This document shows positions 21,472 to 29,117 of a DNA stretch of 64,000 nt, in pieces; the stretch's first letter is position 1, and the number at the start of each line of letters is the position of its first letter. Origin of the DNA: Geothrix sp. (lineage in GTDB: Bacteria > Acidobacteriota > Holophagae > Holophagales > Holophagaceae). The notes below the pieces were generated by a model. It ran no database searches. It was not told the origin of the DNA and saw nothing but the letters and a program-made list of their open reading frames with translations. The DNA is taken from the NCBI GenBank assembly GCA_019449415.1, contig JAGRPP010000015.1, positions 124,001 through 188,000 on the forward strand. The letters run 5' to 3'. The position numbers were made by a program, and so were the translations under genes.

Positions 21472-21519
21472 TTGACAGCGGGAAGGATCTACACAAAATT
21501 GTCTACACCATCTTGTGTA
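21472..21519 (+). promoter_or_regulatory. Promoter and probable operator of the BlaI-type repressor operon
   Basis: TTGACA at 21472-21477 is a perfect -35 box. CAAAAT at 21494-21499 is a fair -10 with 16-bp spacing. TACACAA (21490-21496) and TTGTGTA (21513-21519) form a 7-bp inverted repeat, and TGTCTACA lies between them. BlaI/MecI operators are built from TACA/TGTA dyads, and this one overlaps the -10, so it should allow autorepression by the gene that starts at 21529. Confidence 0.65.
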
Positions 21520-21528
21520 AGAGGTCCC

Positions 21529-21903
21529 ATGAAGCGTCCCGTCAAGCCGACTGAAGTGGAGCTCAAACTCCTGCGCATCCTGTGGGAGCTGGGCCCGGCC
21601 ACGGTCAAGGAGGTCCATGCCTACCTGAGCCGCCGGGAGGATTACGCCTACACCGGCGTGCTGCGGATGTTCCAGGTGATGCTGGAGAAGGGCCTGGTGA
21701 CCCGGGACGAGAGTCAGCGCAGCCATGTCTACGCGCCTGCCCAGAGCCGGGCGGCCACGGAGGGCGGTCTGGTGGCGGACCTGACCGAGCGGCTGTTCGG
21801 AGGATCGGCCGCGGCGCTGGTGCTCGCGGCCCTCCGCTCCGGATCCGTCAGCCCCGAAGAAAAGAACCGCATCCGGGAAATGCTGGGAGGGGAGGAGCGA
21901 TGA
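21529..21903 (+). CDS. BlaI/MecI family transcriptional repressor
   Basis: The 124-residue protein has the BlaI winged-helix domain: PTEVELKLLRILWELGPATVK near the start, VHAYLSRREDYAYTGVLRMFQ as the recognition region, and MLEKGLVTR as the wing strand. The C-terminal half is the helical dimerisation part, which in classical BlaI is the target of proteolysis when a BlaR1-type sensor signals. Its stop overlaps the next start (ATGA), a membrane M56 protease, so the two form an operon. The promoter just upstream carries a dyad fitting a BlaI operator, so it probably represses itself. No beta-lactamase gene lies nearby. Confidence 0.92.
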   Translation: MKRPVKPTEVELKLLRILWELGPATVKEVHAYLSRREDYAYTGVLRMFQVMLEKGLVTRDESQRSHVYAPAQSRAATEGGLVADLTERLFGGSAAALVLAALRSGSVSPEEKNRIREMLGGEER

Positions 21904-23645
21904 CCGCCATCATCCAGATCCTGGGTTGGTCCCTCGTTCATTCGCTCTGGCAGGGCTGTCTGCTGGTGCTGCTGGCGGCGGCGGGCGGCCTCTTCCTGCG
22001 GGGCCGCTCGCGCCACGCCTTGAATGGCCTGGTCCTGTTCCTCTGCCTGGCGATGCCGGCGGGCACGGCCTGGCGGTTCCACCGCCCCGCGCCGAGCGGG
22101 CCGGGGCAGGGCGTCAGGGAGCTTCAGATCCTGGAGACGCCCACCGTCCACCGTGCTTCGACGATGGTCATGGCCCCTCCGCTGCTGACCCGCCTGGAAG
22201 CGGCCCTTCAGCCCCGGCTGCCGGTACTGGTGGCGCTCTGGGCGCTGGGGGCCGGCCTCATGGCCGTGCGCCTGGGCGGAGGCTTTGCGCTCAGCCTGCG
22301 CTGGAGGCGGCAGGGAACCCCGGCCTCTCTCGAATGGCAGGCTGTGGTGGAGGCGCTGACCGAACGGATGGGCCTGCGTCGCTCCGTCCGCCTGCTCCTG
22401 ACGAGGCGGGGCGACACGCCCATGGCCCTCGGCCTGTGGAAGCCCGTGGTGCTGGTTCCGGCAGCCCTGCTCACCAGCCTGCCCCCGGCCTATCTGGAGG
22501 CGCTCCTGGCCCATGAGCTGGCCCATGTGCACCGCCTGGACTACCTCGGCAACCTGCTTCAGGGCCTCGCCGAGACGCTGCTCTTCTTCCATCCCGCCGT
22601 CTGGTGGCTTTCGGCCCGGATCCGGGCCGAACGCGAGGAACTCGCCGACGACCTGGCGGCCCGGAGCCTCGGCGATCCGCGGCGCCTGGCCCTGGCCCTC
22701 AATGCGCTGGACGACCTCCAGCCCGCCCTTCCATCCCCGCTGTTCCCGGCCCTTGCGGCCCGAGGAGGACATTTGCTCACGCGCATCGAACGGCTGCTCA
22801 CGCCCAGGCCCGTCACGAGCTTCCATGGGGGGCTTCTCAGCCTCCTCCTGATCCCCTGCGCGGTGGTGGCCCTGCGGGCGGCCGCTCCGGCGACGCCTCC
22901 CATCGGAGCCCCGGCCGAGGTGGTGGCCCAGCTGGATGCCCTTGCGATCCGCGAAGGCGTAGATCCCCAGCTGCTCCGCAGCATGGCCTGGGTGGAGAGC
23001 GGCTTCAACGCAGCGGCCAAAAGCCCGCAGGGGGCTCTGGGCCTGCTGCAGGTCATGCCCGACACAGCCCGGGCCTATGGTGCGAAGGACCTGAACGATC
23101 CCGCCCAGGTCATGGCGGCCGGAGCGAAGTACCTGCGCTTTCTCCTGGACCGCTACCAGGGGGATGTCGCGAAGGCCGTGGCGGCCTACAACTGTGGTGA
23201 AAGGGCCCTGGAGGAAGGGCGCATCACGGACGAGGCGACCCGCTACCGCGCCCTGGTGATGGATGTGCTGGCCGCCAAGGCCGTGCAGGCTGAGGCGCCG
23301 CTGGCGGATGGGGAAGTTCAAGGTGTCCTCCGACGCAGTGGGGACAAGCTGACGATCCAGCTGCGGGCCCGGGCGCAGGGGAACCTGAAGGTGGATCTGG
23401 TGCCAGCAGAGAAGTCGGGTGACGGCGGCGTCATCCAGATCGGGGAGATCCACCCCGATGGAAGCCATCCGGTCCGACCCTGGATGGACTTCACGCCGAG
23501 GATTGTCCTGGACGGCTCCAAGATTGGGGCGAGCCTGCGGATTAAGGGCGAGGATCCCGGCACAGGCTGGAAGGGCGAGACCCGGGTGTCGCTGGACGCC
23601 CCCTGGAAGACCTTCAGCTTCCAGATGGAACCACCGAAGCTGTGA
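21900..23645 (+). CDS. BlaR1-like M56 membrane metalloprotease fused to a lytic transglycosylase (SLT) domain
   Basis: The 581-residue protein has three N-terminal membrane helices (about residues 5-30, 38-57 and 104-130), an M56 zinc site HELAH at residues 205-209 with Glu246/247 downstream, and a fourth helix at about 310-328. This is the BlaR1 plan, with the protease cytoplasmic. Where BlaR1 carries a penicillin-binding sensor, this protein has an SLT transglycosylase domain (about 345-455) with the catalytic Glu366 in VESGFN, then GALGLLQVMP and AYNCGE. A beta-rich C-terminal domain (470-581) is unrecognised. The SLT part should be periplasmic and touch murein. It may sense or cut peptidoglycan and cleave the co-encoded BlaI-type repressor. 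Confidence 0.88.
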   Translation: MTAIIQILGWSLVHSLWQGCLLVLLAAAGGLFLRGRSRHALNGLVLFLCLAMPAGTAWRFHRPAPSGPGQGVRELQILETPTVHRASTMVMAPPLLTRLEAALQPRLPVLVALWALGAGLMAVRLGGGFALSLRWRRQGTPASLEWQAVVEALTERMGLRRSVRLLLTRRGDTPMALGLWKPVVLVPAALLTSLPPAYLEALLAHELAHVHRLDYLGNLLQGLAETLLFFHPAVWWLSARIRAEREELADDLAARSLGDPRRLALALNALDDLQPALPSPLFPALAARGGHLLTRIERLLTPRPVTSFHGGLLSLLLIPCAVVALRAAAPATPPIGAPAEVVAQLDALAIREGVDPQLLRSMAWVESGFNAAAKSPQGALGLLQVMPDTARAYGAKDLNDPAQVMAAGAKYLRFLLDRYQGDVAKAVAAYNCGERALEEGRITDEATRYRALVMDVLAAKAVQAEAPLADGEVQGVLRRSGDKLTIQLRARAQGNLKVDLVPAEKSGDGGVIQIGEIHPDGSHPVRPWMDFTPRIVLDGSKIGASLRIKGEDPGTGWKGETRVSLDAPWKTFSFQMEPPKL

Positions 23646-23657
23646 TCTCCAGTCGGT

Positions 23658-23694
23658 ACGCAGAAAGGCCCGGCGTCGCCGGGCCTTTCTGCGT
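23658..23694. terminator. Bidirectional terminator
   Basis: Arms 23658-23674 and 23678-23694 pair perfectly over 17 bp around a GTC loop and contain AAAGGCCCGGC/GCCGGGCCTTT. It ends the BlaI/M56 operon on the plus strand and the small gene at 23706-23906 on the minus strand. Confidence 0.85.
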
Positions 23695-28098: not shown

Positions 28099-28920
28099 TC
28101 ACCCTAGGGCTTCAGACATGCCTCGGATCTCGGCCTTGATGCGGTCCATTTCCTCGCGGTCGATCCTTCGCGCGGGGACGCCGCCCCAGGTCTCCCCGGC
28201 CCCGACCCGGCTCCCCGGTAGCACCACGCTCTCCGGGAGGATCGTGGCGTCGTCTCCGATGATCACATCCCCCATGACGCAGCAGGCGAGGCCCAAGGTG
28301 GCCCGATGGCCCACCACCACGGGGGCGATGACGAGATTCCCGCCGCCCCCGTAGTGGGCGAAGATGCGCACGCTGCCGCCGAGGGCCGCATCGTCGCCCA
28401 CGGTGATGAGCTGGGGATCGCTGATGTACTCGGTGTTGATGAAGGCATGGCGGCCGATCTTCATGCCCATGGCCTTGAGGAACCAGACACCGAAGGGCGT
28501 GAGGGTGACGAAGGGCAGGAAGGTGAAGCGCACGAGGTAGAAGAGCCCGTTGTGGAGGAACCAGGGCAGGGCATGCAGGGTGTAGTAGCCGCCTTTGAAG
28601 GGTTTCACCCGGGTGGGCAGCACCCAGTTGTAGAAGGGGATCACCACCAGCAGGGCGAGGCCGAACAAGAAGAAGCAGAGGGCCAGGGCGAACCCGGACA
28701 GGATCCAGGGCAGGGGCCCCGGGAGCCCCGCCGACCAGCGGTGGAAGAAGGGCCAGATCCACAGGGCCGGGGCCAGGGCCAGGCCCAGCGCGGTGGATGC
28801 CAGGGTGTACATCAGCAGGACCGCCAGCCCATAGGCGATGCGGGAGAACCTGCGCAACAGGCGATCCAGCCAATTCGTGGGCGGGGGATTCTTGGATTGA
28901 TCCTTGGCGAAGGGCCTCAC
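28099..28920 (-). CDS. Left-handed beta-helix (hexapeptide) acyltransferase with membrane helices
   Basis: The 273-residue protein has two or more long hydrophobic segments in its first 100 residues and a C-terminal left-handed beta-helix of hexapeptide repeats (for example IAPVVVGHRATLGLACCVMG and VIIGDDATILPESVVLPG). The C-terminal GVPARRID is typical of acetyltransferases. Acceptor is unknown; modification of an envelope glycan or lipid is plausible. The GTG at 28920 is chosen because AGGAGGTG stands at ideal distance. That start lies inside the first unit of a 74-bp tandem repeat; frames upstream are repeat-encoded and not conserved. The 3' end is duplicated at 27920-28009. Confidence 0.8.
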   Translation of the reverse strand: MRPFAKDQSKNPPPTNWLDRLLRRFSRIAYGLAVLLMYTLASTALGLALAPALWIWPFFHRWSAGLPGPLPWILSGFALALCFFLFGLALLVVIPFYNWVLPTRVKPFKGGYYTLHALPWFLHNGLFYLVRFTFLPFVTLTPFGVWFLKAMGMKIGRHAFINTEYISDPQLITVGDDAALGGSVRIFAHYGGGGNLVIAPVVVGHRATLGLACCVMGDVIIGDDATILPESVVLPGSRVGAGETWGGVPARRIDREEMDRIKAEIRGMSEALG

Positions 28921-29117
28921 GCGGCACCTCCTGTGCCGCGCCCTGCGGGCTTCGGCTCCGCCAAAGTGGCCCTCCGCTCCTGCTGCGGCCTCACGCGGCA
29001 CCTCCTGTGCCGCGCCCTGCGGGCTTCGGCTCCGCCAAAGTGGCCCTCCGCTCTTGCTGTGGCCTCACGCGGCACCTCCTGTGCCGCGCCCTGCCAAAGT
29101 GGCACTTCGCTCCTGCT
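28913..29117. repeat. 74-bp tandem repeat, about 2.8 units, over the acyltransferase start
   Basis: Units begin with GGCCTCAC at 28913, 28987 and 29061, exactly 74 bp apart. The first two are nearly identical; the third lacks about 15 bases. Each contains the hairpin GCGGCAC-CTCCT-GTGCCGC. On the minus strand each unit holds AGGAGGTG followed by GTG, so the array carries three copies of a ribosome-binding site and start codon. Only the unit nearest the gene is in its natural place. Confidence 0.85.

Follow-up and report, generated by a model that had tools for sequence, protein, structure and literature searches.

Introduction

BlaR1/MecR1 of Staphylococcus aureus and Bacillus licheniformis, which work with the repressors BlaI/MecI, are M56 gluzincin proteases with a penicillin-binding sensor. 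The zinc ligands of BlaR1 are H201, H205 and E242, with D246, D210, Y261 and R294 in supporting positions; Asp210 and Tyr261 are near-strictly conserved in BlaR1/MecR1, and Tyr261 is required for induction in B. licheniformis (PMC9834060). The signal is relayed to the protease by displacement of the EL1 loop from the active site of the sensor, and the P1' Phe of the BlaI cleavage site (Asn-Phe type) is nearly invariant in BlaR1-type systems (PMC9834060).

Here we describe a gene pair in which a BlaI-family repressor lies directly upstream of an M56 protease, as in these systems, but in which the head of the protease is an SLT domain followed by a beta domain instead of a penicillin-binding sensor. 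It lies in the window, i.e. the whole stretch of 64,000 nucleotides analysed, from Geothrix, a harmless genus of soil and sediment bacteria with a type strain in culture (Geothrix fermentans). Known SLT lytic transglycosylases are soluble, lipoproteins or linked to ABC-type sensors, whereas the Geothrix SLT domain would be held at the cytoplasmic membrane by its M56 part and share a transcript with a repressor gene. A paper on an M56-SLT protein was not found in the literature searched, which does not prove novelty; the protein is real and conserved, and it represents an apparently undescribed variant among BlaI-M56 sensors. On balance, we favour the reading of an autoregulated BlaI-M56 pair with a lytic transglycosylase head that is probably active.

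Gene order and domain architecture

The features of the locus are as follows.

21472-21499, + strand: sigma-70-like promoter, TTGACA (21472-21477), 16 nt, CAAAAT (21494-21499)
21490-21519, no strand: BlaI-type operator, imperfect 30-bp palindrome TACACAAAATTGTCTACACCATCTTGTGTA, over the -10 region
21520-21524: Shine-Dalgarno-like stretch AGAGG before blaI (read from the sequence)
21529-21903, + strand: BlaI/MecI-family repressor, 124 aa (open reading frame, Penicillinase_R and PDB profile matches)
21900-23645, + strand: M56-SLT fusion protein, 581 aa, with an ATGA overlap (4 nt) with blaI
21906-22274, + strand: predicted TM1 (residues 3-30), TM2 (35-61), extracytoplasmic loop (62-94, EL1-like position) and TM3 (95-125), from AlphaFold and hydropathy
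22275-22799, + strand: M56 zinc-metalloprotease domain (residues 126-300) with HELAH 205-209 (22512-22526), D214, E246xxxD250 and R295
22830-22883, + strand: predicted TM4 (residues 311-328), from AlphaFold and hydropathy
22914-23273, + strand: SLT (GH23-type) lytic transglycosylase domain (residues 339-458) with catalytic Glu366 (22995-22997) and Y430-N431 motif
23295-23642, + strand: C-terminal beta-sandwich domain (residues 466-581) without a Pfam family, exchanged between strains
23660-23692: perfect 15-bp inverted repeat GCAGAAAGGCCCGGC/GCCGGGCCTTTCTGC directly past the stop of the fusion gene, a possible terminator (read from the sequence)

The repressor matches Penicillinase_R (Pfam, E 7.8e-25) and, among PDB profiles, MecI (1sd6/1okr) and BlaI (1sd4). 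Its stop codon is overlapped by the start codon of the fusion gene, whose frame is open throughout. The gene order and positions given in the initial annotation hold, and the frame interruption it had considered is not seen. Peptidase_M56 (E 1.3e-23, residues 107-251) and SLT (E 3.9e-24, residues 351-439) were identified in the fusion protein and, like Penicillinase_R, score far over their curated cut-offs. No transpeptidase or penicillin-binding (SxxK sensor) domain was found in it by Pfam, in agreement with the earlier proposal that SLT stands in place of the penicillin sensor; the residue numbers then assigned to HELAH and to the SLT glutamate are also correct. With the NCBIfam BlaR1 equivalog model the protein reaches 41 bits, where the cut-off is 400, and the name BlaR1 should be avoided for it, since it lacks the penicillin sensor that defines BlaR1. 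The last 116 residues, earlier noted as an unrecognised beta-rich domain, match no Pfam family and are all-beta in the AlphaFold model. The inverted repeat at 23660-23692 was not called in the terminator scan, which found no terminator.

Predicted structure and membrane topology

In the AlphaFold model, helices at residues 3-30, 35-61, 95-138 and 311-328 flank the protease and are followed by the SLT domain and then the all-beta domain. TM1, TM3 and TM4 were also found by hydropathy, and TM2 weakly. The best PDB fold matches of the model are the BlaR1 cryo-EM structures 8exq, 8exp, 8exs and 8ext, followed by the lytic transglycosylases Slt, MltF, MltC and MltE. The helices of the model would fit the topology of BlaR1/MecR1 (N terminus outside, four TM helices, cytoplasmic protease, external head). 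The topology was drawn by homology to BlaR1 (PMC9834060), and the periplasmic location of the SLT domain proposed from the sequence is likewise predicted from the helices and this homology. The loop of residues 62-94 would occupy the EL1 position of BlaR1, and the Ala-rich stretch ALRAAAPA after TM4 could be a candidate signal-peptidase site. The full-length model, built from 19 sequences (mean pLDDT 78, pTM 0.48), is of modest confidence: it leaves the domain arrangement unsure and does not predict the relation of the head to the protease.

The beta domain folded alone gave a model of nine strands (pLDDT 89.6). Comparison with the PDB gave nothing better than 5e-3, the best matches being C2- and immunoglobulin-like sandwiches, and a known fold was ruled out as none of the PDB matches is below 1e-3.

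Conservation of the two active sites and of the BlaI cleavage site

Thirty fusions from Holophagaceae, other acidobacteria and Archangium were aligned. The zinc-site residues H205, E206, H209, D214, E246, D250 and R295 are invariant in all 30, as are E366, S375, Q384, Y430 and N431 of the SLT domain; conservation of Glu366 in homologues, on which the initial annotation depended, is thereby established. H205, H209, E246, D250 and D214 were assigned by counting along the BlaR1 alignment, where E246xxxD250 corresponds to the zinc-ligand motif E242xxxD246 of BlaR1 (PMC9834060), and the M56 part therefore has the equivalents of HExxH, the ExxxD motif, the Asp and the Arg of BlaR1/MecR1. The SLT part has the catalytic Glu, the Gln and the Tyr-Asn motif, as well as the fold, of Slt70, MltC, MltE and MltF. 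Since the residues of both sites are invariant, the M56 and SLT activities both appear to be retained in the fusions, and the SLT domain is probably an active lytic transglycosylase.

Two positions differ from BlaR1/MecR1 systems. The position of BlaR1 Tyr261 is Leu in the fusion of the Geothrix lineage (Leu in 23, Tyr in 6 and Val in 1 of the 30 fusions), and BlaI has A100-A101-L102 at the aligned scissile site, where the P1' Phe is replaced by Ala. With the P1' Phe replaced, the S. aureus model for the cut of BlaI by M56 cannot be transferred directly. Both replacements argue against simple copying of the BlaR1 mechanism. In outline, the pair probably works like BlaR1.

Distribution and origin of the M56-SLT fusion

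Full-length orthologues of 57-73% identity are present in many Geothrix genomes and missing from other Geothrix. Wherever flanking sequence is present, the Geothrix locus has malic enzyme on one side and RuvC/RNase R on the other. An artefact or a chance fusion is ruled out because full-length orthologues keep the same order and neighbours as well as invariant active sites.

M56-SLT fusions with an upstream BlaI are present in at least five other genera of Holophagaceae: g2 (L244/L245), g6 (L246), g168 (L194/L195), g169 (L196) and g212 (L248). L248 and a second M56-SLT protein of g6 (L247) contain an additional stretch between the SLT and beta domains, and BlaI-like starts lie upstream of both. 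Outside the family, fusions were found in three acidobacteria (G231, G059 and G466) and in an Archangium MAG, where M56-SLT is followed by an M23 peptidase domain. Searches of 147 genomes from the class of this MAG and of 195 from its phylum found no other full-length fusion. Co-occurrence of M56 and SLT is linked to BlaI, which lies upstream in every fusion operon examined.

The Archangium operon (L018, 3211-5560) reads BlaI, then M56-SLT-M23, and so joins a single M56 protease to two distinct wall hydrolases. The operator cores of this operon and of that in the acidobacterium G059 are nearly identical, which suggests that the operon was transferred horizontally.

In the SLT tree, the acidobacterial and Archangium fusions are apart from those of Holophagaceae (support 99/97), and the Geothrix M56 domains group with M56-TonB_C proteins of betaproteobacteria (support 99/98), whose periplasmic head is TonB_C and not SLT. 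An Undibacterium protein of this type (L020, 3965-5761; M56 fused to TonB_C) is among the closest M56 relatives in the tree. Constraining all fusions together in the SLT tree gave an AU p of 0.052; constraining Geothrix with the other Holophagaceae gave 0.43 for SLT and 0.106 for the M56 domains. The trees suggest that SLT was probably captured more than once; a single origin of all fusions is less likely but not firmly rejected (AU p 0.052). A plasmid-borne or mobile origin was considered and rejected as no plasmid record covered 80% of the query.

Exchange of the beta domain between strains

Comparison of the genome of the window (G000) with a genome labelled as the same species (G027) showed 96-100% nucleotide identity around the locus and about 60% at 23300-23600. 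The rest of the gene is 96.6% identical, the beta domain 59.8%, and the BlaI proteins 100%. No other well-aligned stretch of the 64 kb falls as low as the beta domain against G027, the remaining dips being gaps. Between G133 and G150, identity is likewise higher in the remainder of the gene (91%) than in the beta domain (63%), whereas G236 and G142 are more alike in the beta domain (90%) than in the remainder (79%). The beta domain is thus mosaic across Geothrix, and its history is incongruent with that of the rest in both directions in two cases: constraining G000 with G027 in the beta tree was rejected (AU p 0.0007), as was constraining G236 with G142 in the tree of the rest of the gene (AU p 7e-16). 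Grouping G133, G150 and G236 in the beta tree was not rejected (p 0.17).

The domain was seen only in M56-SLT fusions, one per genome, and no stand-alone copy was present in 61 genomes of the family. Exchange between orthologues would therefore be the simplest source of new beta domains. All domains are under purifying selection (dN/dS 0.11-0.5); positive selection on the beta domain was not seen in this test.

These observations raise the possibility that the beta domain is itself the sensor, for a variable periplasmic ligand or partner, with M56 relaying to BlaI and SLT serving as a regulated output or murein anchor. Replacement of this domain alone between strains, as the sharpest aligned outlier in the window, its incongruent trees and its confinement to the fusions would all fit such a role. 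However, the fusions of G463, G231, G059, G466 and Archangium are without it, so M56-SLT works somewhere in its absence, and the dN/dS values give no sign of positive selection. We regard this alternative as rather doubtful.

Promoter, operator and regulon

A promoter scan upstream of blaI found one promoter against 0.2 expected in shuffled sequences, and its TTGAC is kept upstream in homologues. The candidate operator computed from the sequence covers the promoter of BlaI itself and lies about 410 bp ahead of the fusion gene. All 17 fusion-bearing Geothrix genomes have it exactly once, solely ahead of this operon, and none of 10 Geothrix genomes lacking the fusion has it. A half-site search allowing one mismatch in eight genomes returned the operon site alone in seven; G106 gave one extra, unconserved match. 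The other fusion operons, where inspected, have BlaI-type palindromes of their own upstream. Those of Archangium and G059 have TACGAAGnTCTTCGTTGACATCTACGAAG...TTCGTA in common, once per genome, and genome-wide search found the g2 version likewise once per genome.

As there is a single recognisable operator per genome, at the operon's own promoter, the regulon detectable by sequence is the operon itself. This differs from BlaR1/MecR1 systems: the operon contains no resistance gene, and no beta-lactamase or resistant PBP gene was found under operator control. Release of BlaI would then free the operon's own synthesis rather than a separate damage-response regulon. The initial annotation had the repressor released in answer to wall damage; a wall-damage sensor is possible, and this statement should be narrowed to autoregulation.

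BlaI/MecI systems normally govern separate effector genes, and BlaI might likewise control wall-repair or resistance genes through missed operators, making the pair a wall-damage sensor with a wider regulon. The searches used a single pattern for the operator and a single one for the half-site, which weaker or differently spaced sites could escape. Against this stand the half-site result in seven of eight genomes, the joint absence of operator and operon from 10 genomes and the same outcome in the searches made with two further operator types, and we consider a wider regulon unlikely.

Proposed mechanism

A self-tuning, tethered transglycosylase is the most economical reading. BlaI, bound to the single palindrome over its own promoter, would keep the operon low. 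M56-SLT would sit anchored in the inner membrane, its protease on the cytoplasmic side and its SLT and beta domains on the periplasmic side. A change of state of this head, for example on engaging abnormal murein or leaving an inhibitory loop or partner, would activate the M56 site, which would inactivate BlaI and allow more of the tethered transglycosylase to be made until the load is met. The sensor would thus double as the effector; enzymatic activity, inducing signal, transmembrane coupling and inactivation of BlaI by M56 are the steps that we infer, and the computations gave the architecture, the conserved active sites, the link to BlaI, the overlap of operator and promoter, the single-operator regulon and the predicted fold. 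The pair looks like a self-regulated cell-wall sensor and enzyme and not like an antibiotic-resistance switch.

A muropeptide from SLT or wall turnover might instead release BlaI as a co-inducer, with M56 secondary, as a wall-derived dipeptide binds BlaI/MecI of B. licheniformis and destabilises its DNA complex (PMC3305447) and the P1' Phe of BlaI is missing here, but the zinc site invariant in 30 fusions implies that proteolysis matters, and we consider this alternative quite improbable.

Returning to the self-tuning transglycosylase, we tentatively extend it, with less confidence than in autoregulation itself, to a self-gating murein enzyme whose own substrate engagement sets its synthesis through a BlaR1-type protease. 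The exchangeable beta-sandwich would tune strain specificity, and the wiring would have evolved more than once, in Holophagaceae and in other Acidobacteriota/Myxococcota, the latter with an added M23 endopeptidase. If true, transmembrane proteolytic signalling of the BlaR1 type would be a general platform for monitoring murein, of which beta-lactam sensing is a special case, and an enzyme that could kill the cell by cutting its wall would be dosed by its own workload.

Other BlaI-M56 pairs and minor observations

The same genome contains two more BlaI-M56 pairs with other C-terminal parts (L001, C29:24616-25212; L002, C25:16220-16921). In L002, the one of the two that was scanned, Pfam recognised no sensor domain; their operator sequences differ. 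An anti-phage defence role of the M56-SLT locus was rejected, as no PADLOC match was obtained. A further BlaI-M56 protein, in G059 (L111, 847-3117), has a periplasmic part in which a unit of some 25 aa (LVEFRIHGVSPEFVQ...) recurs about eight times. Elsewhere in the window, a 74-bp tandem repeat (28913-29094; 2.5 copies, 98% alike) adjoins a predicted gene.
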